DNA of 64,000 bases, from assembly GCF_024505045.1 (NCBI RefSeq), contig NZ_JANIBM010000001.1, forward strand, positions 1 through 64,000, given 5' to 3'. The stretch is from Methylomonas aurea. GTDB lineage: Bacteria; Pseudomonadota; Gammaproteobacteria; Methylococcales; Methylomonadaceae. Of this stretch, positions 1 through 14,980 are shown piece after piece (position 1 is the stretch's first letter; each line of letters starts with the position of its first letter). The notes under the pieces were generated by a model. That model saw nothing but the letters and a program-made list of their open reading frames with translations. It searched no databases and was not told where the DNA came from. Position numbers and translations under genes: made by a program.

Positions 1-35
1 CGGCGGGATTTGCCGCTGCCGCGCCTAAGCCGGCA

Positions 36-3000
36 TTACTCGCGATCTTTCGCTTCGGCTTGCTTGCGCTCGCGATAGCCGCGCCAGTAACCGGCCGCGA
101 ACAAAGCCAGTACGCTGAACAACAGCCACCAACTTTGCTCCGGGCTCAACGCCTGTTGCTGCTCGCCGCTGTCGTTGGCCGCTTTCTTCTCTTCCATCTC
201 GTAGCCTTCCAAGGGTTGGGCGGCATTCGGCGCGGCTTGCGCTTGAGCGGGAGGTTGTTGAGAAGGCGGTTGCTGAGCCTGTGTTGGCTGCGGTTGTGAC
301 TGAGCCGCTGCTGCGGGCGCCGGAGGTTGCGCTTGCGCCCCCTGCGCCGCGGCTTTTGCAGCCTTGGCCGCGTCCTGCTGCTCGGCCAGTTTGCTGATTT
401 CCGGACTGCTGCACGTGTCTTTATTGCAGGCCACACCGGCTTTGGCGATGACTTCCTTGTTGACCTGTTCCAGCTTGGCTTTCACCGCCGGGTCGGCCTG
501 CCAGTAACCCTTGTTGATCGCCACCAGCATCCGGTCCACCATGGCCTGATAGGCCAGCAGGTTGTCGGCTTGTTCGAACTTCTTCTGAATATCGAGCTGG
601 TATTTGTCCTCGACATAGGTTTCGTACATGGCTTGCCATTTCTCGGCGCCGACTGCTTCCGGCACCGTCACCTGCCAGCCCCACAGGTTTTCCGCGACCA
701 TATTGATGAAGCGGGCACCGGCGTAGCCTTCCTTCAACATCGACTCTATCCATTTCGGGTTCAGGTAACGACTTTGCATTTCCCGGCCCTGGTAACGTTC
801 CAGACTCATGGTCTTGGCGGCGGTCGGGTCGGCCAGATCGGCGACCAGCACGTCCGGGGTCTTGCCGTTGACTTGCCTTGCGGCCATTGCCGTACCGCCC
901 AGGTATTGGAAGAAGTCGTCGCCGTCCAACGAGGCGTAGACGTTGCTGGAGCGACTGTGGATGACCGCGTCGGTGTCTTTCAACGACAACTTGAACAAGT
1001 CCACCGCCAGCGTCGCATCCTTGCTGGCCGCTTCGCCCCAATGGCCGCGGCCGTAAACGTGGTGCATGCGATTGAAGAACACGTCGGCCAGTTGTTTTTC
1101 GTCCGTCCAGGTGTTGGACAGCGGAATCGCCCGATCCAGATTGGTACCGTAAGCGCCGGACGGCACGCTGAACAAGCGGGCCGAAGCCATATCCAGCGCT
1201 TCCTCCGGCTTCAAGCCGCGCTTGACCAATTCGGCCTGGGTTTCTTTGATATGTCGACGCAGCGGGTTGTCGGGCTCGTCTTGTTCCTGGGCCTTGGTTT
1301 CGGCCTGATCCAGCAGTTTAATGACCGAAGCGAACAAGTCGCGGTATAAGCCGGACGGAATAATGGTGACGTCGACGCGCGGCCGTCCCAACGTGTCGCG
1401 GGCAATCACGTCCACGCCCTGGGTGCGGCCGCGTTCGTCCCAATGCGGTTTGACGCCGAGCAGATGCATGATCTCGGCTTCCATCACGCCTTCGTGGCGC
1501 GAGCTTTCCACGCCCCATAAATTGAACACCAACCGTTCCGGATAGTGGCCGTGCTGCTTTTTGAAGTCTTTGACCACTTGCTCAGCCAAGCGCGCGCCTT
1601 CGTTGTAAACCGCTTCGCTGGGTATCCGCGACGGATCGAAGCCGTACAAATCCTTGCCCGTCGGCAGTGCGTCCGGGTTGCGTAACGGATCGCCGCCGCT
1701 GCCGGCCGGGATGTAGCGGCCGGCCAGGGCATCGAGCAACGCATCCATTTCCGCGTTGGCGCTCTCGGCAATCAATTTGGCCGTGGCCTGGACTTTTTGT
1801 TTCAACGCAGCGCCTTTCAGCGTCGGATCGCGGGCGACGACGGCTTCGGCGAAACGCAATCGGGTTGCTTCATCCGGCGCCTTGCCGAAGGTATGCAAGC
1901 CCATTGGCACTTTTTTCTCGCGGATTTCCTTCAGATAATGCTCCAGTTCTTCCAACTGGTCGGCCGTTTCGGCCCGTTGCATTTTCAAGTCTTTCAACAG
2001 CCCGGCCTTGCTGGCGATTTGGTTGATCTCGTCCAAGCGAATCTTCGCCAATTGCTCGCTTTTCTGGGCGGCGACGTTGTAGTCGTCCAACAAACCCGCC
2101 AGTTTGGCCAGTTCCGGATTCAGATCGGCTTTATCGAGCGGCGGTGTCATATGCGAGATGATCGTCGCCATCGCCCGCCGCTTGGCCTGCAAGGCTTCGC
2201 CCACATCGTCCATGATGTAGGGGTAAATCTGCGGCACATCGGCCATCAGAATCTCACCGGGATCGGCGGCGGTGAAACCGACTTCCTTTCCGGAGAGCCA
2301 TTCGTGGGTGGCATGCGTACCGAGATGGATCATCGCGTCGGCGTGGTAGCCTTTTTGTAGCCACAAATAGAACGCCACGTATTGATGATGCGGCGGCATC
2401 GTTACGTCGTGGTACAGTTTTTTGACGTCCTGCTCCGAGCCGCGCGACGGTTGCGGCGCCAACAACAAGTTGCCGTATTGCAGTGCCGGCAGGATCAGAA
2501 AGCGTTGGCCTTTGCTGTCGGTCCAGGCGCCGATTTTGCTGTCTTCCGGCTTGCCCCAAGACTTCAGCATCGCGGCCTTGAAGGTTTCCGGCAGCGCCTC
2601 GAACCACTGCTGATACTCGGCGATCGGCAACAACACCGCGCGGCCGCTGGCGGCGGCCTCGGCAATCGCGCCCGGTTCCCAGTTGCCGAGGTTGATGCCG
2701 TGGTTTTTGACGGCGGCTTTCAAGGCTTCGCCATCGGTCGGTGCGTTACCCAATCGGTAACCTTCCTTGCGCAGCCGCTCCATGATCAACAGCAACGATT
2801 CCGGCAACACATTCAGATACGAGGCGCCGATGTTTTCCTTGCCGGGCGGGTAGTTGTAGTACAGCAATGCGACTTTTTTGTCGGCGTTGGCGGTGCGGCG
2901 CAGTTTCGCCCATTTGTCGAGGCGGTCGGCGTAGCGGGCGACGCGTTCCGGAATCGGCGCTTCGCGGACGAAATCCTGGCCGGTGGCCTGGTCGTGCACG

Positions 3001-4004
3001 CTTTCTTTACTTGCCACCACGGTCGGCGCAATTTCGCCGGCGAATTCCGGCAACGCCACTTGCCAAGCCCGCTCCATCACGTCAAGACCGGTCGCCGATT
3101 CGGTCCACTGCGTTTGGCTCTGGCTGTTCAAGGCGATGCCATTCAACACCGGCACGCCCAAACGCGTCAGCGTCGGTACGGTCTTGTCCGGGCTGGCGCC
3201 GATCTTCAACGCCAGCGCGGCGATGGCTGCGACACGGGATTTGCCGTTGCCGTCGACCAGCATTTTTTCCAGCGTCTTGTCGTAGGGATAGCCGAATACC
3301 GGCAGCACGTTGTAGCCCTTGGCTTCCAATTGTTCGGCCAACGCTTTGACGGTGTCGGTCTGGCCGGACAGCGCCGACGAGCGGTAGAACAGGATCGCGA
3401 TCCAGGGCCGGGCAGCCTGATAGCCGGCATAAGCCTTTTGATAGCTGTCGAAATCGGCAAACAATCGTTTGCTGCGCACATCGAAGGCGCCGATCTCCGG
3501 TTGGGCTTGCGGCGGCGCGATTTCGGCTTGGACATGTTTGAATTTGGCCAGGGCCAGCCGGATCATGTTGGCGGCGTTGTCGGCGCCGCCGGCCGACATA
3601 TAGGCTTGCAGGTCTTTATCCAGTTGCAAGCCGTAATCGGCGAAATCGGCGTCGTAACTCAAACCCACCGCATACAACTTGCCGCCGCGCGCGGCGATTT
3701 GTTTGAACACCGCGCCGCCTTCGCGCAAAATGCCGCGCCCGGTGATTTGCGCCAGTACCAAGTTGGATTGCTGCAATTCGGCCTGCTCGGCTTGCGCCAG
3801 TTTCGAGCTGGAATAAACCCGCAGTTTCACGCCTTGCAGTAGCGGATCGTTTTGCAATTTGCGCGCGGCTTCGACGGCGGTTTGCGAATCCAGGTCGCCC
3901 AAAATCAGGCTCAGGTTAACCTGAGCTTGTTCTGCAAATGCCATAGAGTTAAACACCCATAGCAAAATACATAACAGCCAGCCAAAAAGTTTATTCGGGT
4001 ACAT
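36..4004 (-). CDS. Exported, membrane-anchored CobN/HmuS-type chelatase
   Basis: This 1322-residue protein belongs to the CobN/BchH large chelatase subunit family, which inserts or removes metal in tetrapyrroles. The family signature is visible as H560, H564, H567 and the E568-W569 pair in the HLGTHATHEWLSGKEVG segment. Unlike cytoplasmic CobN, it starts with a signal peptide (residues 1-24, ending SMAFA) and ends with an Ala/Gln/Pro-rich linker (about 1205-1275) and one transmembrane helix (about 1290-1310) with a basic tail. I therefore infer a periplasmic, membrane-tethered catalytic domain. It overlaps the DUF2149 gene by 14 bases, and an ExbB-like gene precedes that one. This trio is the one found with HmuS of Bacteroidetes haem operons. 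No CobS/CobT-type ATPase gene is nearby. The substrate is unknown. The nikR gene upstream suggests a nickel-containing chelate, but cobalt or haem iron remains possible. Confidence 0.85.
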   Translation of the reverse strand: MYPNKLFGWLLCILLWVFNSMAFAEQAQVNLSLILGDLDSQTAVEAARKLQNDPLLQGVKLRVYSSSKLAQAEQAELQQSNLVLAQITGRGILREGGAVFKQIAARGGKLYAVGLSYDADFADYGLQLDKDLQAYMSAGGADNAANMIRLALAKFKHVQAEIAPPQAQPEIGAFDVRSKRLFADFDSYQKAYAGYQAARPWIAILFYRSSALSGQTDTVKALAEQLEAKGYNVLPVFGYPYDKTLEKMLVDGNGKSRVAAIAALALKIGASPDKTVPTLTRLGVPVLNGIALNSQSQTQWTESATGLDVMERAWQVALPEFAGEIAPTVVASKESVHDQATGQDFVREAPIPERVARYADRLDKWAKLRRTANADKKVALLYYNYPPGKENIGASYLNVLPESLLLIMERLRKEGYRLGNAPTDGEALKAAVKNHGINLGNWEPGAIAEAAASGRAVLLPIAEYQQWFEALPETFKAAMLKSWGKPEDSKIGAWTDSKGQRFLILPALQYGNLLLAPQPSRGSEQDVKKLYHDVTMPPHHQYVAFYLWLQKGYHADAMIHLGTHATHEWLSGKEVGFTAADPGEILMADVPQIYPYIMDDVGEALQAKRRAMATIISHMTPPLDKADLNPELAKLAGLLDDYNVAAQKSEQLAKIRLDEINQIASKAGLLKDLKMQRAETADQLEELEHYLKEIREKKVPMGLHTFGKAPDEATRLRFAEAVVARDPTLKGAALKQKVQATAKLIAESANAEMDALLDALAGRYIPAGSGGDPLRNPDALPTGKDLYGFDPSRIPSEAVYNEGARLAEQVVKDFKKQHGHYPERLVFNLWGVESSRHEGVMEAEIMHLLGVKPHWDERGRTQGVDVIARDTLGRPRVDVTIIPSGLYRDLFASVIKLLDQAETKAQEQDEPDNPLRRHIKETQAELVKRGLKPEEALDMASARLFSVPSGAYGTNLDRAIPLSNTWTDEKQLADVFFNRMHHVYGRGHWGEAASKDATLAVDLFKLSLKDTDAVIHSRSSNVYASLDGDDFFQYLGGTAMAARQVNGKTPDVLVADLADPTAAKTMSLERYQGREMQSRYLNPKWIESMLKEGYAGARFINMVAENLWGWQVTVPEAVGAEKWQAMYETYVEDKYQLDIQKKFEQADNLLAYQAMVDRMLVAINKGYWQADPAVKAKLEQVNKEVIAKAGVACNKDTCSSPEISKLAEQQDAAKAAKAAAQGAQAQPPAPAAAAQSQPQPTQAQQPPSQQPPAQAQAAPNAAQPLEGYEMEEKKAANDSGEQQQALSPEQSWWLLFSVLALFAAGYWRGYRERKQAEAKDRE

Positions 4005-4326
4005 AAACCACCTTGCCGTCGTTCAACCGGTATGCGGTGCCCAAACGCTCGCCGGAACCGCTGAGTTTGCGGTCGGTGACCTTGGATACCTTGATTTGCG
4101 AGCCTTTTTTGCTGACGATTTCCATCGTGCCGTCGGCGTTTTGCTTGGTCATCGTCACGGTCGATTCGGGATTCATCAGGTCCAGCATGTTGTAGGCCAT
4201 GAACAAGGCCACCATCATGCTGACGATGAATACCACGCTGGCGTCGAACAGGTTGGCGACGCCGGCGATCGGATCTTCCAACGGCTCGCTGTTGCGGTGC
4301 AGGTTAGAGCGTCTCAGATAGCGCAT
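3991..4326 (-). CDS. DUF2149 membrane protein of the CobN/ExbB set
   Basis: A 111-residue protein with one strong transmembrane segment (about residues 25-48, containing VVFIVSMMVALFMAY) followed by a small periplasmic domain. It matches the DUF2149 family, which accompanies CobN-like and MotA/TolQ/ExbB-like proteins. The topology resembles ExbD/TolR: a short cytoplasmic N-terminus, one helix and a periplasmic domain. I infer it is the stator partner of the ExbB-like protein. The start at 4326 is chosen because an AGGAGG lies six bases upstream; the ATG at 4332 would abut that site. It overlaps the upstream gene by 23 bases and the cobN-like gene by 14, consistent with translational coupling in one operon. 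Confidence 0.8.
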   Translation of the reverse strand: MRYLRRSNLHRNSEPLEDPIAGVANLFDASVVFIVSMMVALFMAYNMLDLMNPESTVTMTKQNADGTMEIVSKKGSQIKVSKVTDRKLSGSGERLGTAYRLNDGKVVYVPE

Positions 4327-4909
4327 GGCCATCCTCCTCTATGCTCGCGTCCGGCACGTCCAACATCCGGCTGGCGGCCAGCTCGGCCTGGTGCCGCATC
4401 GCCGCAAAATCGGCGCGCAGCCATTGTTCGCGCACCAGCGCGATCAAATAAGCCACCACGCCGCAACCGAGGCCGGTCACGGTAGCAGTGAACGCGGTGA
4501 CCATGCTGCCGGCCATGCTCGGGATATTGCCTTGGGCCAAGGCAGCCAGCGAAATGCCCATCGGAATCAAGGTGCCCATCAAACCCAGTGCCGGGCCGAG
4601 TTTGATCACGAAACGGATTTGGTCGAGTTTGACCAATTGCCGGTGCTCGTGGTTTTGCAACAGCAGCTCCAATTCCACATCGAGCGGCGCTTCGGAGCGC
4701 CGGTTTTTACCCAGCGCGACGGCCAGATCGAGATTGAAAAGGCGCACGCTACGCGAGCCGGCTTTGCGCCGGTCCAGCCATTCCTGCAACAATCGGCCGC
4801 AGGCATAGACCGAATAGGCTGCCAACAACGTAACGATCAGCAATACCGGCAGGTATAACGACGACGAAATCCGGTACAGAATGGTTTCTAATAAGTGGGT
4901 CAGTTCCAC
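4304..4909 (-). CDS. MotA/TolQ/ExbB-family proton channel protein
   Basis: A 201-residue inner-membrane protein with three predicted helices: an N-terminal one around residues 15-40, a Gly/Pro-rich helix near 95-122 (LGPALGLMGTLIPMG) and a third near 130-155 (TGLGCGVVAYLIALV). This is the ExbB/TolQ/MotA layout. Such proteins couple the proton gradient to work in the envelope. With DUF2149 as an ExbD-like partner, it probably energises the CobN-like protein or its receptor. The GTG at 4909 is preferred because AGGAGG lies six bases before it; an in-frame TTG at 4924 overlaps that ribosome site. About 220 bases separate it from the HupE gene upstream, so the last three genes may also have their own promoter. 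Confidence 0.8.
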   Translation of the reverse strand: MELTHLLETILYRISSSLYLPVLLIVTLLAAYSVYACGRLLQEWLDRRKAGSRSVRLFNLDLAVALGKNRRSEAPLDVELELLLQNHEHRQLVKLDQIRFVIKLGPALGLMGTLIPMGISLAALAQGNIPSMAGSMVTAFTATVTGLGCGVVAYLIALVREQWLRADFAAMRHQAELAASRMLDVPDASIEEDGHALSETL

Positions 4910-4929
4910 GGCCTTCCTCCTCAAGCATT

Positions 4930-4980
4930 TTTGTAGTTGTTTTAATAAAAAATATTTGTATTCAATCGTTTACCAACCTC
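4930..4980 (-). promoter_or_regulatory. AT-rich possible promoter for the exbB-DUF2149-cobN trio
   Basis: The 51 bases before the ExbB-like gene are markedly AT-rich in otherwise GC-rich DNA. On the minus strand TTGGTA is followed after about 16 bases by TATTTT, a loose -35/-10 pair. This is a weak call by eye, but the position and base composition fit an internal promoter. Confidence 0.3.
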
Positions 4981-4998
4981 CAGACCGGAGCCATGGCC

Positions 4999-5045
4999 AA
5001 ACGGCGGGCAATAGCCGGCCCTGGCTGGAAACAGCCGTTTTTTTT
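4999..5045 (+). terminator. Intrinsic-terminator-like hairpin facing the plus strand
   Basis: On the plus strand GGCTG (5023-5027), loop GAAA and CAGCC (5032-5036) are followed by G and eight T (5038-5045), a good rho-independent terminator shape. A competing longer stem is possible between AAACGGC (4999-5005) and GCCGTTT (5034-5040). No plus-strand gene ends here, because both flanking genes are on the minus strand. A second GC-rich stem (GGCCGGG class, around 5062-5081) lies next to it. Confidence 0.4.
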
Positions 5046-5128
5046 CGGTTTGGAAATCGGTCCCGGCCGCGAGGGGCCGGGTTGCAAAACTATCGGCTGA
5101 CGTAAACCGCGCCGCCGGTCGCAGCCGG

Positions 5129-6226
5129 TTACAACATGGTCCGCTCCACCAGCCAGAAGGCGCCCATCACACTGACCGCGACCGAGCCGCCCTTCAAAAA
5201 CCGGCTGGCCGTTGCGACCTGATTGTTCAGCCACCAGATCAACGGCAGCACCAGCGCCGCGACGGCAATCTGTCCGCTTTCTATGCCTAAGTTGAACGCC
5301 AGCAGCGGCAACAAAATCCCGGTGTCGGCCGCCGAGATGTTCATTTCCTGCAACACCCCGGCAAAGCCGAAGCCGTGGATCAGCCCGAAACCGAAGGTCA
5401 GCCAGTGCCGGCCCTTGGGCTTGTCGCCACGGACAATGTTCTCGATGCCGACGTAGATAATCGTCGCGGCGATGAAGGGTTCGACGAAACTGGCCGGCAA
5501 TTCGACTAGCCGCAATCCGGCGCAGGCCAGGGTGATGGAATGGGCGATGGTAAAGAAGGTGATGATCTTCAACGCCGGCCACAAACTATGTGTCACCGCC
5601 AATAATGCGAACAGGAACAGCAGGTGGTCGTAGCCGGTCAGGATGTGTTCGATACCCAACTTAAAAAAGTCGCCGAACGCCGCGAACGCAGCTTGGGGGG
5701 CTGCCGAGTCCGCGGCGGCGGCGAGAGTCAAATCCAACTGGTCATCGCTGCGGCCCAGCATCTTTTCGGCCAGCGATTTTCCGGCGGCATCGCGTACCGT
5801 CAAATATTGCTGGTGGCCGTCCGGCAGCAATGCCAGAAATCCGGATTGCAGCCGCAACTGGCGCTGCGCCACCAGCGGATACTGCAACTCGACCTGGGCA
5901 TTGTTCTTGCCGTCGTAACTGACCGGGCCGGGCTGGCTCTGCGCGTCGACGCCGTCAACCGCGATACGCAATTGTTCCGCCAGCAGTTTGGCGATGGCGG
6001 GCTTGGCCGCTTCGCGCTCGGCGTCGCTGACCTCGGCGTCGAGATCGCTATCCATCGCCACGAAGGCTTCGATATCCTGCAACGCAAAGGTTGCGGTGGC
6101 CTCGATGTGGTCCGGTTTCAGCGCCAGATCCAGCGAGCTGAGTCCGGGCGCATGGGCGGAGGCCCGACCGGCCATCAAAGCCAACACTATCAGCGGCAGC
6201 CGGGAAGCCGGAATGCGAATTGCCAT
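5129..6226 (-). CDS. HupE/UreJ-type permease with periplasmic N-terminal domain
   Basis: A 365-residue protein with a signal peptide (residues 1-25), a periplasmic domain of about 150 residues and a C-terminal membrane domain of the HupE/UreJ_2 type. The membrane part carries HILTGYDHLLFLFALL and a later LIHGFGFAGVL, the two His motifs typical of the family. HupE/UreJ proteins move nickel, cobalt or copper across the inner membrane. Residues 59-70 (DSDLDAEVSDAE) match a calcium-type EF-hand loop, with acidic side chains at positions 1, 3, 5 and 12. The gene starts 10 bases after the TonB receptor stop, so it is almost certainly in the same operon. I infer it takes in the metal that the receptor brings to the periplasm, or that the CobN-like protein releases there. 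Confidence 0.82.
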   Translation of the reverse strand: MAIRIPASRLPLIVLALMAGRASAHAPGLSSLDLALKPDHIEATATFALQDIEAFVAMDSDLDAEVSDAEREAAKPAIAKLLAEQLRIAVDGVDAQSQPGPVSYDGKNNAQVELQYPLVAQRQLRLQSGFLALLPDGHQQYLTVRDAAGKSLAEKMLGRSDDQLDLTLAAAADSAAPQAAFAAFGDFFKLGIEHILTGYDHLLFLFALLAVTHSLWPALKIITFFTIAHSITLACAGLRLVELPASFVEPFIAATIIYVGIENIVRGDKPKGRHWLTFGFGLIHGFGFAGVLQEMNISAADTGILLPLLAFNLGIESGQIAVAALVLPLIWWLNNQVATASRFLKGGSVAVSVMGAFWLVERTML

Positions 6227-6236
6227 ACCGCTTACC

Positions 6237-8474
6237 TCAGAAATTGATCGAAATGGTGCCGCGGAACATGCGCGGTTCGACCGGATGCTTCAAGATGCCG
6301 AACTGGTTGGGCGAACCGTTCGGGTAGGCGTACTCGTAGGCATAGGCAATGTCGTTGCTTTGCGAGCCGAGGATGTTGAACACGTCGATCTCGAACTTGT
6401 ATTGCTTATGTTTGTAACCGGCGCTGAGGTTGACGATGTTGGTATCACCGGACCAATAATCGACATTGGTATCCGGATCGCGGTCTAGGTAGACCCGGCC
6501 GAAATGCCGCAAGCGAATGGCGCCGAATAGGCCGTTCGGCGCTTCGATCGTAGCGCCGGTGGAAACCACCCGGCCGACCGAATTCGGAACGTAAAGATTG
6601 TTGTCGGCGTATTTGGCGGTGGTCAGCGCAAAGTCGGCATCCAGCGTCAACCAATCGAACGGTTTGTAGTAGTTGGTCAGTTCGATACCGTAACGGTGCG
6701 ATTTGCCGGTTGCTTCCGTGGTACCGGCGTCGCCGACGAATACCAATTCCTGGCTCGACTCCAGCCACCACAGGGCGAAGGTACTGTTCAGGCCCGGTAC
6801 ATAATTGGTACGGATACCGGCCTCGCCGCCGCGCGACCAGGCGGCGGGGCGAATGCGGGCAATCGACAGTCCGGCGTCGTCCACCGCCGGCGAACCGTCG
6901 TTGGGATTGCGTTGCAACGTGGTGCCGCGGGCATCATTGGAGTGGTAACCGTAACCGGCGTTAAAGAAAAATTCGGTGTCGTACCAGGGCCCCAATACCA
7001 AGCTGATTTTCGGACTGACCATAACCTTGCCGCGGCTACCGGAGTTGGCGGCGTTGATCGCCGGATCCTGGTTGCGATTGTCCAGCACCTCGACGTCGTT
7101 ATTGATGAAATCGCCGCGCAGGCCGGCGATGGTACGGACCTTATCGTGCCAATGGGTGGTGTTTTTGAAGTAGGTGCCGACCGTGGTGACGCCGACGTTG
7201 CTGCGGCTGACCGTGTTCATGATCCGGCGCGCTTCGGTTTCGTATAGGCCCAGGCCCATGATCTGGTCGTTACGGAATTGCAGGCCGACACTGTTATCCA
7301 TTTCGAAGCCGAACAATTTGTTGTAACGGGTATGCTCGAAATGGCCGCCGGTTTGTACCCGTTGTTCGGTTTGCAGAATCTGGTCGCCGCCGGCACCGCG
7401 GGTGAAGCCGCTGAAGTTGGAATACAAGTCCAGGTCGGTATACACAGCATAGATATTGGCGTCGTTTTTCCAATTGTCGCCCTGATTCCAGAAGCTGCTG
7501 GACAGACTGTAGCGGTTGGTCTTGCCGCCGTCGGTCGGGTCCATAGAGCCGTATAGCCCGAGACTGCCGTTGTCGATCGCCGCCTGCGGAATCTGGTTGG
7601 TCGCGGTCCAACTGTTGGTATAGGCCTTACCGTTGATCGATAGCCCCCAATCGTCGCCCCCCAAGGTGTAACGCAACTGGCCGTTGAATTTCTTCGAGTC
7701 TTCCGGCACTTGCCAGACACCGTCGTAAAGATTGAATTCGCCGGCATAGAGCAAATCGCCGTCGCCGACTTTCATCGAGTTGGCGACCAAAGTCCGGTAA
7801 TAATCGAACGAGCCGGCGGTGAATTTCAAAATGCCCTGGTCCAGTTTGTCCATCGTGAACATCTTGGCGTAACCGGCCGCGGAAAAATCGCCGACCTCGG
7901 CGTAATACGGGCCTTTGCCGTATTCGACTTTCTTGACCAGTTCCGGAATGATGCTATTGATGTCCATGTAACCCTGACCGTGGGCGTGGGTGGTCATGTT
8001 CATCGGGATGCCATCGACGAAGGTGGTGAAGTCGGTGCCGTGATCCAAATTGAAACCGCGCAGGAAGTATTGGTTAGCCTTGCCGGAGCCGCTGTGCTGG
8101 GTGGCGATGGCGCCGGGCACGACTTCGACCAGCTCACCGTTACGCGAGAACGGCCGGTGCTCGAATTGCTTCTGGCTGACTTCACCTTGCGAGGCCGACG
8201 GCGCGATACCGATCAGATTTTTGCCGCGGCCGTCTTCCTCGACTTGCACCGCTTCCAGTTCTTCCGACTTTTCCGCTTTTTTGGCTTTGTTGGCGGTTTT
8301 GACCGCCGGCTTATCCTCTTCTGCAGCGGCGACGGCAACCATATCCGGCGCCGGCTCGGCCAACACTTCGGCCCCGGCCAAACCGAGGGCGATTTCCAGG
8401 CCAACGGCCATTAGTGTTTTGGGAAACAGCGCGGCGCGCCGGGTCAGGCGAAGTGGGTACATATTCTTCCTCAT
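6237..8474 (-). CDS. TonB-dependent outer-membrane receptor (metal-linked)
   Basis: A 745-residue receptor with an N-terminal signal peptide, an Ala/Lys-rich stretch, a TonB-box-like LEAVQVEE (about residues 73-80), a plug domain (about 85-210, with LRGFNLDHGTDFTTFVDGIP) and a 22-strand-type barrel ending in the C-terminal phenylalanine of SINF. The plug includes THAHGQGYMD, a His-containing segment that could face a metal ligand; this is speculation. Its ATG overlaps the stop of the preceding HupE-like gene in an ATGA, so the two are translationally coupled. The genes around it (nikR, two HupE permeases, CobN-like chelatase) point to uptake of a metal or metal chelate, most likely nickel. 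Confidence 0.85.
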   Translation of the reverse strand: MRKNMYPLRLTRRAALFPKTLMAVGLEIALGLAGAEVLAEPAPDMVAVAAAEEDKPAVKTANKAKKAEKSEELEAVQVEEDGRGKNLIGIAPSASQGEVSQKQFEHRPFSRNGELVEVVPGAIATQHSGSGKANQYFLRGFNLDHGTDFTTFVDGIPMNMTTHAHGQGYMDINSIIPELVKKVEYGKGPYYAEVGDFSAAGYAKMFTMDKLDQGILKFTAGSFDYYRTLVANSMKVGDGDLLYAGEFNLYDGVWQVPEDSKKFNGQLRYTLGGDDWGLSINGKAYTNSWTATNQIPQAAIDNGSLGLYGSMDPTDGGKTNRYSLSSSFWNQGDNWKNDANIYAVYTDLDLYSNFSGFTRGAGGDQILQTEQRVQTGGHFEHTRYNKLFGFEMDNSVGLQFRNDQIMGLGLYETEARRIMNTVSRSNVGVTTVGTYFKNTTHWHDKVRTIAGLRGDFINNDVEVLDNRNQDPAINAANSGSRGKVMVSPKISLVLGPWYDTEFFFNAGYGYHSNDARGTTLQRNPNDGSPAVDDAGLSIARIRPAAWSRGGEAGIRTNYVPGLNSTFALWWLESSQELVFVGDAGTTEATGKSHRYGIELTNYYKPFDWLTLDADFALTTAKYADNNLYVPNSVGRVVSTGATIEAPNGLFGAIRLRHFGRVYLDRDPDTNVDYWSGDTNIVNLSAGYKHKQYKFEIDVFNILGSQSNDIAYAYEYAYPNGSPNQFGILKHPVEPRMFRGTISINF

Positions 8475-9745
8475 AGTGCGAATATCGTTGCGGTGGTTGT
8501 TGTTATGAACACCGGTCTCGAGCCGGATTGGATGTGGAAAGCGGTTTTGCTCGCGGCAAACGTGCGGGAACGGCCGGCGCTAAGGCAACGTCGAGCCAAG
8601 CCGTTGCCGGCGGCGCGAAAGGCGGCCGCATGCAGGCGGTAAAAAATTCGGGTGTCGGGAGCGACGCCAAAAGATTCGGCGCGGATTTGCTGAATGGTTT
8701 CAGCCGATACGGAAGGGGTGGAGCGAAACGCTAAAGAAATCGGGGCGGGGCTTGCGGAAACGGAAAGCGGCGGCGAAGTGCGGCCGACACCGCTGCTGAG
8801 CAGTTGGGTGCCCGGTGTCTGGTTGATATCCGGAAAGCGCTGTTTGAAACCGCTCAGGCAATTGCGGGCCATATCGGCCAGCGCCATCGCGCAGAAATCA
8901 AGCACAGGCAACGCGCACGCCGCAACCGATTCGGAGCCAGCGACCGCATGCCCGGCGGGCGGTTTGGCTAGAGCGGCTTTGGCGCTACTGTTCGCCGCCG
9001 CGCTATGGCAGGTCGCAGTTACCGCGACCGCGCCGGAAACTCGCTCCAGCCCGCCGCCGGGGTAGCCCGCCAAATTGCCGGAGTAAAACGCCGCATCCGC
9101 GTGCAAATGTTTCGAAGCGGCAGGTCCGGCGGCTTCGGCCGGGCCGGCTTTGGCCCATACCGCCTGCGAAAACATCGCGGTCAAAAGAAAAGTCGCGGCC
9201 AGCACCACCAACTTGGCGACCACGATGCCGGCGCCATGCAGCAGCAAAGTCGCCAGCATAAAGCCCAGGGTATAAGAGATCAGGCTGGCTGAGGCGGAAA
9301 TTTCCTGGCCGTGGGCAAAACCGTGAAAAAAGGCGAAAAAGGCGACGATCAAGACATTGACCTTGCTGCTGAAGCGGACCTTGCGCGTGATCAGCAGCGC
9401 GAATACCGCACATGACAACAGAACGATGCCTTCGACGCTGGGTATCGTGATCCCGGCAGCGCCGGCCAATCCGCCCAGACTCATCACGCCGACGAAGGCC
9501 AAGGGCAGCATCCAGATCGCTTGGCCGCGCAGCTGAGCGGCCCAAATCCCGACCGCCAACATCGCCAGCAAATGGTCCCACCCGGCCAGCGGATGGTTAA
9601 ATCCGTTATTCCAGCCCAGCGCATCCAAACCGATAAATTGCGCACCCACCAACGCCGCGAATGCAAGGAGCAGCAAGCCGAAACCCAACGGCCGCAGCCA
9701 AACGGGCAACTTGTGGAATGGGGTTTGGGAGCGGCGCAACTTCAT
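8471..9745 (-). CDS. HupE-like permease with a 220-residue unique C-terminal tail
   Basis: Residues 1-200 form a HupE/UreJ-type permease. They contain H51-PLAGW-D57-H58 and H141-GFA-H145-GQE, the two metal-site motifs, and about six helices. Family members normally stop near residue 190-210. Here the frame continues for another 224 residues, rich in Ala, Ser, Gly and Arg, with scattered Cys and His and no recognisable domain. The tail may be a real extension or former non-coding DNA added after loss of a stop codon. The ATGA overlap with the receptor gene suggests translation really does reach its end. The gene is first in the minus-strand operon, 151 bases after nikR. Confidence 0.7.
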   Translation of the reverse strand: MKLRRSQTPFHKLPVWLRPLGFGLLLLAFAALVGAQFIGLDALGWNNGFNHPLAGWDHLLAMLAVGIWAAQLRGQAIWMLPLAFVGVMSLGGLAGAAGITIPSVEGIVLLSCAVFALLITRKVRFSSKVNVLIVAFFAFFHGFAHGQEISASASLISYTLGFMLATLLLHGAGIVVAKLVVLAATFLLTAMFSQAVWAKAGPAEAAGPAASKHLHADAAFYSGNLAGYPGGGLERVSGAVAVTATCHSAAANSSAKAALAKPPAGHAVAGSESVAACALPVLDFCAMALADMARNCLSGFKQRFPDINQTPGTQLLSSGVGRTSPPLSVSASPAPISLAFRSTPSVSAETIQQIRAESFGVAPDTRIFYRLHAAAFRAAGNGLARRCLSAGRSRTFAASKTAFHIQSGSRPVFITTTTATIFAL

Positions 9746-9896
9746 GGTTTAGCGACGAAAAAAGCCTTTTGCAGTCAATTCAAATGCCCGTTAAGACGAA
9801 TGGGCAACGAATCATACGACACATAGCACATTTTTAAAAATTATGAATAATAAATAAAATGTCTTATCATGCGCCGCATCGGGCTTCCTACCCGAC
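9746..9896 (-). promoter_or_regulatory. Promoter region of the receptor/HupE/CobN operon
   Basis: This 151-base gap between nikR and the first hupE-like gene has a very AT-rich core (about 9828-9866), as expected for a promoter. One TCATAC, which is a NikR half-site in enterobacteria, lies at 9812-9817, but its GTATGA partner is absent at the expected distance. A weak hairpin (CGGG/CCCG type, 9878-9896) just after nikR has no T-run. Confidence 0.4.
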
Positions 9897-10364
9897 TCAG
9901 CTATGCGGATGTATATGCGAATGGCTATGGCCGTGGTGATCGTGCTGGTGAGTACCGGTCGCCATTTTGACCGGTACCAGATTGAGCGAGGCGTGGCGGA
10001 CGCCGGTTTCGGCGGACAGCTTGTCGGCGAACGCCCGGATGCGCGCGGTCAATCCGCGTAGAAACAAGGTTTCCAGGCAGTCGTCGTGATCCAGATGCAC
10101 GTGCATCGACGATACCACCAGATCGTGGGCGTCGTGCTGGTGGCCGGTCAGGCGCTCCGCCAGGTTGCGTTCGTGGTGGTTGTAGACATAGGACAGCGTG
10201 GCGATGCTGTAAATGGCTTGATCCTGTTTCAGCCGTTTGGTCTCGATTTCCTTGCGCAACAGGTCGCGGACGGCTTCGGAGCGGTTGGAATAGCCGCGGG
10301 CGGCGATCCATTGGTCGAACTCCGCCGCCAGCTCGTCGCTGAGAGAGATAGTAAAACGTTCCAC
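9897..10364 (-). CDS. nikR: Nickel-responsive transcriptional regulator NikR
   Basis: A 155-residue protein with an N-terminal ribbon-helix-helix DNA-binding domain (residues 1-45, FTISLSDELAAEFDQWI) and a C-terminal ACT-like nickel-binding domain. The four ligands of the high-affinity nickel site are all visible: H77, H88, H90 and C96, each one residue later than H76, H87, H89 and C95 of E. coli NikR. The C-terminus has an additional His-rich tail (about residues 137-155, HQHDHHGHSHSHIH), which could bind further metal. It is encoded on the same strand as, and directly upstream of, the HupE/receptor/CobN operon, so it is likely the nickel sensor for those genes and possibly for itself. Confidence 0.92.
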   Translation of the reverse strand: MERFTISLSDELAAEFDQWIAARGYSNRSEAVRDLLRKEIETKRLKQDQAIYSIATLSYVYNHHERNLAERLTGHQHDAHDLVVSSMHVHLDHDDCLETLFLRGLTARIRAFADKLSAETGVRHASLNLVPVKMATGTHQHDHHGHSHSHIHPHS

Positions 10365-10386
10365 AGCAAGCTCCTGTTCTTATAGT

Positions 10387-10412
10387 CGTTATAGGAGCCG
10401 GCGATTATAACG
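10387..10412. promoter_or_regulatory. Perfect 7-bp dyad in the nikR promoter region
   Basis: CGTTATA (10387-10393) and TATAACG (10406-10412) form a perfect inverted repeat with a 12-base spacer. It lies 23 bases upstream of the nikR start codon and on the other side faces the plus-strand gene at 10502. Spacing and size are close to NikR operators (about 28 bases overall), but the half-site sequence differs from the enterobacterial GTATGA. It could serve nikR autoregulation or the divergent operon. Confidence 0.4.
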
Positions 10413-10501: not shown

Positions 10502-11080
10502 ATGTCCACAGGACATTACACACATGACAATTTCGGCAAAATCGTGATTCGCGCGCAAGTGGGGATTGCACTGGCCCTATTACTCTGTTTACCGCTCGCC
10601 AATTTCTGGTTTCCCAGCGCCTACAGCCTCAAGGCCGGCATCCACGGCCTCAGCGCCATTCTGGCGTTGGTCGTCGGTACTTATTTGACGCATAGGGCCT
10701 TGCCGTTGATCAAAGGCATGCACGTCAATCTGGAGTCGCTGCGCCGCTGGCTACTGGTAGCCACCCTGCTGAACTTGGCCGGCGCGATCAGCGGCAACTG
10801 GATCTACATGCGTTACCGCGGCCAGGACGGTCCCCGCGACTGGATTTTGGAGCGGGTACCCGCAATTCACAACGTGCTGATGGAGTTCAAAGAGTTCGTC
10901 TCGTTGTTTCCGTTCCCATTGATGCTGTCGGCCACCGCGCTGTTGTATTACTACGGCTTGCCGATGCAGACCCGACGTGACCTGTGCCGCTTCGTCGGCA
11001 TCACGATCCTGGTGTCGTGGAGTTTTCTGATGCTCGGTTTCGTGGTCGGCCTGGTGCTGGCCAAACTGCGCTTCGTTTGA
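10502..11080 (+). CDS. Four-helix inner-membrane protein, function unknown
   Basis: A 192-residue protein that I do not recognise by family. It has four hydrophobic segments (about residues 20-37, 47-66, 82-103, 135-154), with a further one at the C-terminus (about 165-187). Several His residues lie in or near helices (H49, the TH pair near 64-65, H74, and the AIH around 123), so haem or metal binding is conceivable. A GGGAGAGG ribosome site precedes the ATG. It is the first gene of a plus-strand set that includes a CopC-like protein and a c-type cytochrome, which suggests a role in periplasmic copper or electron handling. That role is inferred from context only. Confidence 0.6.
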   Translation: MSTGHYTHDNFGKIVIRAQVGIALALLLCLPLANFWFPSAYSLKAGIHGLSAILALVVGTYLTHRALPLIKGMHVNLESLRRWLLVATLLNLAGAISGNWIYMRYRGQDGPRDWILERVPAIHNVLMEFKEFVSLFPFPLMLSATALLYYYGLPMQTRRDLCRFVGITILVSWSFLMLGFVVGLVLAKLRFV

Positions 11081-11094
11081 ACCAGGAACGCCTG

Positions 11095-11505
11095 ATGCAA
11101 CAACAATCCGAATCGAATATTCAAGCGCTACGCTCCGGCCCGGTCGTGGCGGCCAGCCTGGCGTTACTGCTGGCGTTTTTGACGTTGATGGTCAGCCACC
11201 ATATTTCCCGGCTTTCGCCCGGCCTGGACAAGCTGGTGCATAGCTACGGTTACTGGATTCCCGGCTCGCAAGGCAAGGGGCCGGACGGCAGCATCGGCTC
11301 TTACACCGGCAAGGAAACGCTGGCCATCGGCGTCTGGCTGTTGAGTTGGTTGGCATTCCACCTGATGTGGCGCAAACAGGACCTGGACTTGGCGATCTGG
11401 ACCCGGATTTTCGTCATCAGCCTGATCGTTATTACGCTGGGTTTTTTCCACCCGTTGTCAGACCCGCTGGTACTGTTAATCGCCGGTTTTTTTGGCTTGC
11501 CCTGA
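11095..11505 (+). CDS. Small membrane protein of the CopC-containing set
   Basis: A 136-residue protein with about three hydrophobic segments (near residues 15-35, 64-82, 92-132). Between the first two is a polar loop with HHISRLSPGLDKLVHSYGYW, so its His pair may face the periplasm. No family is recognised. It begins 14 bases after the preceding gene and ends eight bases before the copC-like gene, so co-transcription is very likely. The ATG at 11095 is chosen because it follows AGGAACGCC and avoids overlap with the upstream gene. Confidence 0.6.
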   Translation: MQQQSESNIQALRSGPVVAASLALLLAFLTLMVSHHISRLSPGLDKLVHSYGYWIPGSQGKGPDGSIGSYTGKETLAIGVWLLSWLAFHLMWRKQDLDLAIWTRIFVISLIVITLGFFHPLSDPLVLLIAGFFGLP

Positions 11506-11513
11506 GGAAAACC

Positions 11514-11903
11514 ATGCCCAAGTTTTTGAATCTACTCGTCCCCATATTGCTGGCCTTGACCAGCCCAGCCGGCCTGGCCGAAGGCGTATTGTTGAAATCG
11601 GAGCCGAAAAACAACGCCGAAGTGAGCAATTTCGACGGCACCGTCAAATTCTGGTTCAGCGGCAATGTCGGCGAACGCTCGCCGTCGGTCGTCGTGGTCG
11701 ATGCCCACGGCAAACGGGTCGACAACGGCGACACCCGTCTGGTGTTGGGCGAACGCCACCGACTAGCCGCAACCACCCAAGCCCTGCCGCCCGGCCCTTA
11801 CGCCGTCCGCTATCGGGTGATTACCGAGGACGGGCTGGTGGTCAGCGGCATCTCCAAGTTTACCGTCGTCGCCGCAGCAGCGAGTACGGAGGCCAAGCCA
11901 TGA
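11514..11903 (+). CDS. copC: CopC-like periplasmic protein lacking the Cu(II) histidines
   Basis: A 129-residue secreted protein with the CopC/YobA immunoglobulin-like fold: signal peptide (1-22), LLKSEPKNNAEV at the mature N-terminus, a central KFWFSGNVGE and the closing PYAVRYRVITEDGLVVSG. CopC proteins carry copper in the periplasm. In canonical members the mature protein begins with His and the closing motif is DGH. Here the mature N-terminus reads EGVLL and the motif is DGL, so both usual Cu(II)-site histidines are missing. It may use other ligands, bind copper weakly, or work through a partner. The stop overlaps the next start as ATGA. Neighbouring genes are all envelope proteins. Confidence 0.75.
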   Translation: MPKFLNLLVPILLALTSPAGLAEGVLLKSEPKNNAEVSNFDGTVKFWFSGNVGERSPSVVVVDAHGKRVDNGDTRLVLGERHRLAATTQALPPGPYAVRYRVITEDGLVVSGISKFTVVAAAASTEAKP

Positions 11904-12523
11904 AAATATTACCGGCTATGATCCTGGCCGCTACCGCCCTCGGCCAAGCGCAGGCGTCGGTACCGCTGGGCGGCAACCGCAAAGGCGCCGACGGCAATTA
12001 CGACCTCTACGGTTGCATGCTGACCAACGACTATTACGTGGTCAATTTTTCCGCCTACCAGCTCGACCCGAACCAGGCCAAGGACGATAAATCCATACTC
12101 CAAGCCGAATGCGTCGATCTGCCGCGGGTCGGCAAAACCCAAATCGCCGTGGACCTGCTGGACCTGGACGTGCGGAAAAAACCGGTCGGCCTGAAGATTT
12201 TGCGCGAGGATGGTCAAGTGATCGCCGAAGTGCCGATGGCCGTGGTCAAGCAAGGCGTATTGACGGCCAGCGTGGATTTCAAAACCGCCGGCAAATACCA
12301 AGCGGTGCTGTCGGTGGAGGACTCCGATTTGCACACGCCGCCGGAAACCAGCGCCTTGCACATGCCGTTGACGGTCGCTATGGCCGTGGCGCCGTCGGCA
12401 GCCAATGCCGGCAGCGCCAAAGGGTTGGGCGTGGTGTTCGGCGTGCTGGGCCTTTGCCTGGCGTTGGCCGCCTACTATATCCCGCGGCTGCTAAAGCCGC
12501 GCACCGACGGCAGCCCGTCGTAA
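11900..12523 (+). CDS. Membrane-anchored periplasmic Cys/Met protein, PmoD-like candidate
   Basis: A 207-residue protein with a signal peptide (1-19), a soluble periplasmic domain and one C-terminal transmembrane helix (about 178-196, VVFGVLGLCLALAAYYIP) followed by a short basic tail. The N-terminal part has a GCM motif (near residue 37) and a second Cys about 30 residues later (AEC). This layout of periplasmic domain, Cys-Met pair and C-terminal anchor resembles PmoD, the copper protein of methane and ammonia oxidisers, but I cannot confirm homology by eye. Its start overlaps the copC-like stop in ATGA, so the two are probably translated together. A periplasmic copper role is inferred. Confidence 0.55.
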   Translation: MKILPAMILAATALGQAQASVPLGGNRKGADGNYDLYGCMLTNDYYVVNFSAYQLDPNQAKDDKSILQAECVDLPRVGKTQIAVDLLDLDVRKKPVGLKILREDGQVIAEVPMAVVKQGVLTASVDFKTAGKYQAVLSVEDSDLHTPPETSALHMPLTVAMAVAPSAANAGSAKGLGVVFGVLGLCLALAAYYIPRLLKPRTDGSPS

Positions 12524-12588
12524 CCTGTCGCCGATGCTGCGCGATTAGCGTGGCTCGATCCGGTCACCATTACTACCAGGAAACATTT

Positions 12589-13062
12589 ATGAGAGCGACA
12601 TTACCAAAACCGTTTACGGCTTTAATCCTGGCCGCCCTGCTTGGCGCCTGCGCCCATCCGGAACGGCATGGGCAGGAGATCGCCGGTTTCGTACCCGGCC
12701 TGGGCGAAATCATGGCCCAAACCGCCACTCGCCATGCCAAGTTATGGTTTGCCGGACAGGCGCAAAATTGGGATCTGGCTGCTTACGAAGTCGACGAACT
12801 GCACGAAGGCATCGAAGATGCCGGCAAATATCACCCGACCCACAAACAGATTCGCCAACCGATTCCCGATCTGTTGGCGCTGTATCTGGACCAACCCTTG
12901 GCCGAGCTGGATCAAGCCGTCACAGCCAAAAATCAACAGGCATTTATCGCGAATTACGATAAGCTTACCGCTGCCTGCAACGCCTGCCACCAAGCCACCG
13001 AATTCGGTTTCAACGTCGTGGTGCGACCCAGCTTCAACCCGTTCGCCAACCAGGCGTTCTGA
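12589..13062 (+). CDS. c-type haem lipoprotein (cytochrome c'-like)
   Basis: A 157-residue protein with a lipoprotein signal (LLGAC, lipid cysteine at 21), a helical body and a single haem c motif CNACH at residues 130-134, near the C-terminus. One CxxCH late in a small helical protein is the arrangement of cytochrome c' and related four-helix cytochromes. The protein is probably tethered to the outer or inner membrane facing the periplasm. It follows the copper-type genes by 66 bases with its own AGGAAA ribosome site. Its partner and redox role are unknown; electron transfer to or from the preceding metal proteins is plausible. Confidence 0.7.
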   Translation: MRATLPKPFTALILAALLGACAHPERHGQEIAGFVPGLGEIMAQTATRHAKLWFAGQAQNWDLAAYEVDELHEGIEDAGKYHPTHKQIRQPIPDLLALYLDQPLAELDQAVTAKNQQAFIANYDKLTAACNACHQATEFGFNVVVRPSFNPFANQAF

Positions 13063-13150
13063 GCGACGGCTTCGTTCGTTTAGCAGGGGCGGTTGCCGCG
13101 GCCCGGCGTTGCAGTTGCGGTAATTTATCCATTCTCAGCAAGCGAACACT

Positions 13151-13858
13151 ATGCGCAAATTTTTACCACGCCGGACGGCAGCCTGCCTGCTGTTGCCGGC
13201 AACATTCGCCGCGGCGGCCGGACCGGTGCGCGACGATTTCGGCGTCTGGATCAGCAATACTTACCAAACCGACTTTGGCGGCAGCCCCTATCTGGCTTTT
13301 TTGGAACTGGCGCCCAGAACCAAGACCGACAACGACCAATTCGCCCAAATCATCGTCCGGCCGCTGGTCGGTTACAAGCTCACAAAAAAGTTGCAACTCT
13401 GGGCCGGCTACACCTGGCAAGGCGAATACAGCGAACAGACCGATTTCGAATTGGCCACCAACGATGCGATGCAACAGTTGCAATGGGTAGACAACTGGTC
13501 GCCGGAGTGGAATTTTCAGTACCGTTTCCGGTTGGAGCAACGCTTTTTCTCCGAGGAAGACAACGTCGCCCACCGCATGCGCCACCGCTTTCGTTTGGTG
13601 TACTCGATACCCGACACCAAAGCCTATCTGATCGGCATCGACGAGCTCTTCGTCTATTTCAATTCGTTCGACGACGGCCGTCTGGCACGTTCGGTGCAAA
13701 CCGGCATCAACCAGAACCGCAGTTATGTCGGCGTAGGTTATAAACTGACACCGCAACTGAATGTCGATACCGGCTACCAATTACAATACGTGCATAACTA
13801 CGGCGCGCCGGATTTGGTCAACCATGTCTGGTTTACCAACATCAACGTCAACTTCTGA
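13151..13858 (+). CDS. DUF2490 outer-membrane protein
   Basis: A 235-residue secreted protein with a signal peptide (1-23) and alternating beta-strand pattern throughout (for example KLQLWAGYTWQGEY and WNFQYRFRLEQRFF), ending in the outer-membrane-type terminal phenylalanine (INVNF). This matches DUF2490, a family of predicted outer-membrane beta-barrel proteins of unknown role. It closes the plus-strand cluster, 88 bases after the haem lipoprotein. No plus-strand intrinsic terminator is seen after it, since the hairpin just downstream has its T-run on the other strand. Confidence 0.75.
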   Translation: MRKFLPRRTAACLLLPATFAAAAGPVRDDFGVWISNTYQTDFGGSPYLAFLELAPRTKTDNDQFAQIIVRPLVGYKLTKKLQLWAGYTWQGEYSEQTDFELATNDAMQQLQWVDNWSPEWNFQYRFRLEQRFFSEEDNVAHRMRHRFRLVYSIPDTKAYLIGIDELFVYFNSFDDGRLARSVQTGINQNRSYVGVGYKLTPQLNVDTGYQLQYVHNYGAPDLVNHVWFTNINVNF

Positions 13859-14413: not shown

Positions 14414-14980
14414 TTAATTTATTCGGGCTGCGCCCCAGCGGGCTGGCGCGGCCAGCAATGCCGGGATGGCCCGATTTGCGGCAACGCCGAGCGCTAGTTG
14501 ACTCAAAGTCGCTAAGGTAAAACCTGCGGTATAACCGAGCGCGTCGCTATCCAGCCAAATATCGTAAGCATGGGCGTATCCATGGCATACCGCGACGCCG
14601 GCAATCACCGATAACGACAAAGCCCAATGCAATTGGCGTCCCGACGCCAGCAGTAAGCCCAGCACCAAAATGCCGGCGTACATCAGCGTTTCGGGATGGG
14701 CAATCTCCAGCGGAACCAAAGCCATTGCGCCGCCCACCAACAGCAACGCCAGGAATGACAGCGCCAGCGAGACGACGGCTCGAACATGGCCGCTGCGGCA
14801 GAGCCAAAAGCCGACCGCGAGCATCGTCAAGATATGGTCCGAACTGGAAAAAGGATGCAGCAATCCGCTACCGAAACCGATCGCTTCGCCGGCCTCATGG
14901 AAAGGATGGGCATAGGCCGGCATCGAACCGGCCGAAAACATTAATATCGTTAACAAAAAACGCTTGAAAGACTTGCTCAT
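14414..14980 (-). CDS. hupE: HupE/UreJ family metal permease
   Basis: A 188-residue permease of typical HupE length with a cleavable signal peptide (ending PAYA), the N-terminal metal motif H42-PFSSS-D48-H49 and a later CHGYAHAYD, and six hydrophobic segments. HupE/UreJ proteins transport nickel, cobalt or similar ions into the cytoplasm. The ATG at 14980 is chosen over an in-frame one at 14998 because AGAGG lies just upstream. It is the third HupE-type gene in this 15-kb stretch and sits downstream of a second TonB receptor gene. An operator-like inverted repeat is found about 150 bases upstream. Confidence 0.85.
   Translation of the reverse strand: MSKSFKRFLLTILMFSAGSMPAYAHPFHEAGEAIGFGSGLLHPFSSSDHILTMLAVGFWLCRSGHVRAVVSLALSFLALLLVGGAMALVPLEIAHPETLMYAGILVLGLLLASGRQLHWALSLSVIAGVAVCHGYAHAYDIWLDSDALGYTAGFTLATLSQLALGVAANRAIPALLAAPARWGAARIN

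Follow-up and report, generated by a model that had tools for sequence, protein, structure and literature searches.

The first 64 kb of contig NZ_JANIBM010000001.1 of Methylomonas aurea (the window, that is, the whole stretch analysed; the genome assembly is in 93 contigs) contain a cluster of seven co-directional genes on the minus strand: nikR, hupE1, the TonB-dependent receptor gene TBDT1, hupE2, and genes for an ExbB-like, a DUF2149, and a CobN-like protein. The cluster is considered here as a possible route for the uptake of nickel and its release from an imported complex. All seven genes of the original prediction were found where it had placed them, in one direction and with a Pfam match for each (Table 1). 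They had also been described as separated by overlaps or small gaps, which holds for the three overlaps (hupE1/TBDT1, exbB-like/DUF2149, and DUF2149/cobN-like) and the 10-nt spacing between TBDT1 and hupE2, but not for nikR–hupE1 (151 nt) and hupE2–exbB (219 nt). As the contig starts at window base 1, the sequence behind the cobN-like gene is missing here. The nikR product contains both the RHH domain and the nickel-binding NikR_C domain (Pfam, NCBIfam); against TIGR02793 it scored 143.5 bits, under the cut-off of 175.45. In HupE2, a long N-terminal part precedes the permease domain. HupE1 ends in a tail of ∼200 aa (window 8471–9110) without a Pfam match, which is alike in four aligned Methylomonas proteins and carries a conserved FPDINQTPGTQL motif. 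For the exbB-like gene, a start at 4909 (GTG, preceded by GAGGAGG) is likelier than position 4924 given in the list of open reading frames (ORFs). The same genome has a full-length match (754 bits) to NiFe-hydrogenase.

Table 1. Coordinates of the genes, candidate operator sites, and noncoding gap of the cluster.
Feature	Window position	Strand	Evidence
nikR, nickel-responsive regulator, His-rich C-terminal tail	9897..10364	-	Pfam NikR_C 106 bits; NCBIfam PRK02967 184.5 bits (cut-off 83)
Candidate NikR box A	9845..9872	-	3 mismatches to GTATGAT-N13/14-ATCATAC
Candidate NikR box B	9791..9817	-	3 mismatches; exact GTATGAT on the left, degenerate right half
hupE1, HupE/UreJ permease in first ~190 aa	8471..9745	-	Pfam HupE_UreJ 144.8 bits
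TBDT1, TonB-dependent receptor, nickel-linked family	6237..8474	-	Plug 51 bits
hupE2, HupE/UreJ_2 permease	5129..6226	-	Pfam HupE_UreJ_2 156.5 bits at residues 187-335
hupE2-exbB gap, 219 nt, noncoding, hairpins	4910..5128	-	
exbB-like, proton-channel subunit	4304..4909	-	MotA_ExbB 42.6 bits
DUF2149	3991..4332	-	Pfam DUF2149 110 bits
cobN-like	36..4004	-	Pfam CobN-Mg_chel 1036 bits

The arrangement was followed through 37 Methylomonas genomes, the window's own included. NikR was matched in 25 and DUF2149 in 16 of them, 12 of the latter being of the close type (at least 109 bits). The full seven-gene order occurs in eight, again including the window's own, and is therefore not a product of chance. 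A laboratory strain, Methylomonas sp. LW13, carries the complete set. Around the 12 close-type modules, hupE1 was always present, TBDT1 together with hupE2 in ten cases, and nikR within 7 kb in eight (the window's genome, G107, G117, G394, G395, G405, G410, and G411). In two genomes (G038 and G406), NikR is without a match anywhere, yet TBDT1 and hupE2 adjoin the module. TBDT1 was found near 20 of the 30 NikR matches of the genus, and 12 of these 20 loci are without a CobN module. Wherever enough sequence was available (9/9 Methylomonas loci), a second receptor gene, TBDT2, follows behind cobN. In two loci (L101 and L102), a 3′ remnant of TBDT2 of 37–38 codons lies ∼2 kb behind hupE2. No exbB-like, DUF2149, or cobN match was found behind hupE2 in either, and remnants of this kind are what loss of the module would be expected to leave. 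Because 12 of the 20 TBDT1-linked NikR loci lack the module, and because of these signs of its loss, nikR–TBDT1–HupE looks like a core to which exbB–DUF2149–cobN–TBDT2 is attached as an accessory, separable module.

To the 300 nt after nikR, the consensus GTATGAT-N13/14-ATCATAC, which is enterobacterial (PMC545781), was applied in 28 loci and compared with shuffles. These loci correspond to the 30 NikR matches of the genus minus L166 and L168 (29% NikR) and L167 (broken NikR), plus L105 from another genus. A NikR-like box with at most three mismatches was present in 19 of the 28 loci (shuffle mean 0.58, maximum 3), one with at most one mismatch in seven (shuffle mean 0.01, maximum 1). The former applied to five of the eight module loci with nikR; in all four nikR-less modules, the best NikR-like site was no better than shuffles. 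In the window, the score of box A was equalled in 2 of 100 cases when the 300-nt stretch was shuffled and in 5 of 60 for a wider stretch, and box B has counterparts at a comparable position in L101, L102, L146, and L147. A NikR operator ahead of the structural genes is a candidate: the signal is strong for the set (19/28) and weak in the window itself. Good NikR-like boxes also stand right after nikR in L153, L154, L155, and L165, although no reference nickel gene follows there.

TBDT1 had no match among PDB sequences at E 0.001. Its relatives were found in 52 plasmid records, of which 15 were listed and nine opened. In seven of these nine (Cupriavidus pHG1, Afipia pHCG3, Methylomagnum, Paraburkholderia, a Comamonadaceae strain, and two Bradyrhizobium), nikR, hoxN, or NiFe-hydrogenase genes lie within about 9 kb of the receptor gene; nickel genes were not near it in Indioceanicola, and the M. 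extorquens CM4 plasmid has cobalamin genes there instead. The linkage to nikR, the NikR-like boxes, and the hydrogenase and nikR neighbours of these relatives support, in context, the earlier proposal that nickel is the metal of the receptor/HupE part. In L105 (positions 1–5640; another genus of the family), tonB-exbB-exbD directly precede nikR-TBDT-hupE2, perhaps as a TonB system dedicated to nickel. Beside nikR in the window, a divergent cluster (10502–13858), kept next to nikR in many Methylomonas genomes, encodes a CopC domain protein, a DUF2490 protein, and several proteins without assigned function; an additional HupE-like gene lies at about 14504–14887.

The CobN-like protein, encoded by the single CobN gene of the genome, has a signal-like N terminus (1.94 in a hydropathy scan rather than by a dedicated signal-peptide predictor), which lends contextual support to its predicted export. 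No NCBIfam CobN model reached its cut-off (870 bits for the best one, against 1248), and CobS reached at best 94 and 88 bits in the genome against a cut-off of 558.55, CobT not having been searched for. The haem de-chelatase HmuS, shown in 2025 to extract iron from haem, is characterized in that report by His538, His1209/Glu1212, Met79, His254, and a Met-rich insert (PMC12583661). Met79 falls outside the aligned stretch, and the comparison covers the other four features. His538, within HFG(T/A)HG, is kept as H564 in HLGTHA, which is weak evidence for kinship with HmuS because this residue is described as conserved across the superfamily (PMC12583661). His1209/Glu1212 (LSLDHxxEFMGG) are replaced by D1030/Q1033; hmu homologues (L204, L205, and L207) keep both H and E. 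The haem ligand His254 corresponds to I268 (pairwise match to 9d26, with manual counting of the residue), and the Met-rich insertion of 22 residues or more is absent, as no 82-residue stretch between residues 601 and 841 contains more than 3 Met. By alignment, the protein thus lacks three of the four HmuS features compared. Judged from sequence and model, its overall likeness to HmuS is nevertheless as high as that to CobN: phmmer gave 462 bits for CobN 7c6o versus 448 bits for HmuS 9d26, and a fold search with an AlphaFold2 (AF2) model (residues 25–1205, pLDDT 76) ranked 7c6o best (E 2.8e-66) and 9d26 second (6.1e-65).

Its ExbB-like partner matches canonical ExbB (hhalign probability 95). 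DUF2149 is predicted to form one long helix (residues 21–53), the first part of which carries an Asp (Asp30), followed by a beta-rich part (AF2, mean pLDDT just 65); this low-confidence model gave no Foldseek match at E 0.001. Of the 66 bacterial DUF2149 loci inspected, 63 have both CobN and ExbB next to DUF2149; the other three (L053, L054, and L173) are partial, low-scoring DUF2149 matches. The stretches of L054 and L173, without CobN or ExbB matches, contain a hydrogenase large-subunit-like match. In the slot before ExbB, a NicO-like protein of Runella matches HoxN (hhalign probability 95). A permease family common to this slot was considered and found no support: neither DUF2162 nor HmuT, called a putative permease in PMC13227078, significantly matched HupE/NicO by hhalign, but these negatives say little because the positive control, HupE1–HupE2, which share Pfam families, reached a probability of just 4.8.

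The same partners recur in archaea. Of 294 genomes in the archaeal phylum of a Methanophagales locus (L089), 91 have DUF2149, compared with 18 of 274 in a sample of the window's class. Among 20 archaeal loci chosen for strong DUF2149 matches, ExbB adjoins in 20, DUF2162 in 19, and CobN in 18; of the pair without CobN, one sits at a contig end. Archaeal CobN ORFs have a hydrophobic stretch within the first 90 residues (15/15) and at the C terminus (12/12 with a readable end); the motif reads DD in 12 of 13 readable cases and DH in one. Archaea are not known to have TonB receptors. The genomes of L089 (1.1 Mb) and of a Clostridiales locus, L081 (3.0 Mb), carry CobN, ExbB, and DUF2149, and a TonB plug match was found in neither, which is not proof of absence because both are drafts. 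The presence of the module in archaea and the missing plug in L081 and L089 argue that ExbB/DUF2149 act for CobN or for the transporter rather than for a receptor in the outer membrane. Of the proposal that this pair energizes CobN, the pairing with CobN rather than with the receptor is supported by context, as archaea keep the set; the energizing itself we infer. Archaeal “CobN” proteins of unclear function had been noted by the HmuS authors (PMC12583661).

Ten plasmid records with DUF2149 were found, and nine opened. In Runella, hypF and hypC enclose genes for a TonB-dependent receptor (TBDT), a NiCoT-like protein, ExbB, DUF2149, and CobN, and hydrogenase genes follow downstream. In Trichlorobacter, the order TBDT, DUF2162, ExbB, DUF2149, CobN, ExbB, ExbD, TonB, TBDT follows two tandem cobalamin riboswitches, and likeness to the window is 48% for CobN and 73% for DUF2149. 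Three of the nine records are hmu operons with HmuY; the modules of Diaphorobacter, a Comamonadaceae strain, and Pseudoalteromonas NC201 could be assigned no metal context. A further genome (G662) has cobalamin riboswitch-TBDT-DUF2162-ExbB-DUF2149-CobN (DUF2149 52%). Azospirillum, also among the nine, was rejected as a third nickel context: its nikR is divergent to a nikA-like ORF (judged by eye), and a cobalamin riboswitch stands beside the module. For a quick CobN tree, 104 ORFs at E 1e-20 yielded 75 of at least 950 aa, 70 of them distinct; with one canonical CobN added and 13 near-duplicates left out, 58 rows remained. The window falls into a clade of 15 rows (SH-aLRT 99) that also holds nine further Methylomonas rows and those of G662, Runella, Trichlorobacter, Methylotenera, and Sideroxydans; three hmu rows lie outside it, as do 26 proteobacterial rows together with the archaeon L089. 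The place of Runella is less sure because its branch is long. Contexts within this clade are nickel (Methylomonas, Runella), cobalt/corrinoid (Trichlorobacter, G662), and unassigned (Methylotenera with PepSY_TM, Sideroxydans).

The gap between hupE2 and exbB contains predicted hairpins and a conserved 19-nt block (4997–5015). It is conserved in 10 loci sharing the gene order, and is not found before exbB in L150 and L151. It had no Rfam match, and a conserved RNA structure was without support (covariation term 0.03). The gap is possibly an internal promoter or attenuator.

On balance, we are inclined to read the locus, with little more than even confidence, as a NikR-linked nickel uptake cluster joined by a CobN-based metal-release module, the equivalent, for nickel (or cobalt), of the haem de-chelatase in the Hmu system. 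TBDT1 would bring a nickel complex in through the outer membrane, and TBDT2 perhaps a second ligand. The CobN-like protein, to judge by its N terminus placed outside the inner membrane, would strip the metal (nickel, possibly cobalt) from the imported chelate. Proton-motive force for this step would be supplied by the ExbB-like/DUF2149 pair, replacing the ATP-driven AAA+ partner of cytoplasmic cobalt/magnesium chelatases, and the HupE permeases would move the freed ion across the inner membrane. NikR would turn the genes off once nickel suffices, a step that is doubtful for the rear genes. The interpretation originally proposed for the locus is thereby supported in part.

Several observations weigh against this reading. 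In four of the 12 close-type modules nikR is not adjacent, and in two of the four (G404 and G407) TBDT1 and hupE2 are missing alongside as well; relatives without nikR, to which the original prediction had pointed as its critical case, thus give a mixed picture, all 12 modules keeping hupE. Of the module loci with nikR, three of eight reach just 4 mismatches to the NikR consensus, equalled by 9 to 15 of 100 shuffles, both sites of the window carry 3 mismatches each, and the 28 scanned loci, being related, are not independent. The hupE2–exbB gap holds hairpins and no NikR box (best 5–6 mismatches across the 10 loci, 6 in the window), and NikR may therefore not govern the rear half (exbB–DUF2149–cobN). 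The nearest CobN relatives outside the genus include two operons behind cobalamin riboswitches, and another close relative lies in a TBDT-PepSY_TM locus without HupE or nikR matches. By TM-score, the AF2 model of the CobN-like protein is nearer to HmuS (0.72) than to CobN (0.65). Its C-terminal stretch, a possible membrane anchor, is weakly hydrophobic (1.44 over 17 residues versus 2.1–2.9 in archaea), and anchoring is therefore less sure than for the archaeal proteins. The kinship of DUF2149 with ExbD is weak (hhalign probability 16, with the transmembrane Asp in register and just two ExbD rows), so that their resemblance is suggestive only.

The cobalamin riboswitches upstream of the Trichlorobacter and G662 modules raise the alternative that the rear module handles cobalt or corrinoid and was merely placed beside a nickel receptor, and cobalt transport by HupE has been reported (review PMC7689651). 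This we regard as unlikely, as the window contains no cobalamin riboswitch at the Rfam gathering score, nikR is near eight of the 12 modules, and hyp genes flank the Runella module on both sides. Slightly less probable still is a rear module that is an independently regulated passenger, working with TBDT2 on iron or another chelate and unrelated to nickel. The constant place of TBDT2 behind cobN (9/9), the modules of L150 and L151, which stand without nikR, TBDT1, and hupE2, and the 219-nt gap ahead of exbB would all suit such a passenger, as would the TBDT2 of L073, best matched by a haem-receptor model, if below cut-off (194 of 317 bits), and the position of the relative L079 beside PepSY_TM. 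It is opposed by hupE1, which accompanies the module in 12 of 12 cases, and by the slot before ExbB, which in relatives holds a NiCoT-like or DUF2162 protein.

That ExbB/DUF2149 energize TonB receptors instead of CobN appears improbable. The ExbB-like protein is homologous to ExbB, and a model of this kind is drawn for HmuU/HmuV in PMC12583661, but the module is common in one archaeal phylum, the L081 and L089 drafts have it with no TonB plug match, and the Trichlorobacter operon holds a separate ExbB/ExbD/TonB as well. A haem-iron system like that of Bacteroidota hmu would share the kinds of gene (CobN-like, ExbB-like, DUF2149, TBDT), and HmuS 9d26 is close to CobN in phmmer score, second in the fold search by E-value, and best by TM-score; with Asp1030/Gln1033 and Ile268 at the HmuS positions, no Met-rich insert, and a clade separate from the three hmu rows, we consider it very improbable.

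The Methylomonas locus links a “CobN” protein of the kind that the HmuS authors noted in archaea to a regulator and permeases for nickel, while the loci from archaea link it to ExbB and DUF2149. Together, they suggest a general proton-powered route that frees metals from organic complexes outside the cytoplasm. Methanogens need much nickel and cobalt. Tentatively, and with somewhat less than even confidence, we propose that transporter–ExbB–DUF2149–CobN is an old, free-standing metal-release machine shared by archaea and bacteria, in which CobN outside the membrane would be driven by proton-powered ExbB/DUF2149 and not by an ATP-driven AAA+ protein. Which metal is handled would depend on the outer-membrane receptors, on the membrane protein preceding ExbB, and on the regulator (NikR, cobalamin riboswitch, or iron control), with nickel in this locus, cobalt in Trichlorobacter, and haem iron in hmu. 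In the open literature searched, no tie of CobN/DUF2149 to nickel was found, an earlier mention being possible, and no mention of DUF2162; DUF2149 is named in five papers, two of them on other subjects.

Several parts of this system have known counterparts. With the CobN cobaltochelatase and the ChlH magnesium chelatase, the CobN-like protein shares the fold and the DDxxQ stretch; it differs in its signal-like N terminus, in a genome without CobS above cut-off, and in that no cobalamin genes were seen nearby. Nickel receptors of this general type were already known: the nickel or NikR-linked TonB receptors named so far include FrpB4, FecA3, NikH, Bll6948, and others (PMC11247825). Likened by description only, TBDT1 resembles them in lying beside nikR or nickel permease genes and a NikR-like box, and departs from them, as described, in the CobN/ExbB-like/DUF2149 module attached in Methylomonas. 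For Geobacter (Trichlorobacter) lovleyi, a plasmid cobN-exbB-exbD-tonB cluster has been described, whose exact role its authors called unknown (PMC3403914). It belongs to the same CobN clade and has the same ExbB-DUF2149-CobN order, but lies downstream of cobalamin riboswitches and has DUF2162 in place of HupE. The Bacteroidota hmu system (HmuYRSTUV) likewise combines a CobN-like protein with ExbB-like and DUF2149 proteins, a TBDT, and a membrane protein before ExbB, and the first active-site His is common to both (H564 here), whereas the Methylomonas module has NikR and HupE beside it, and its CobN-like protein, with D1030/Q1033/I268 and no Met-rich insert, belongs to a separate clade.

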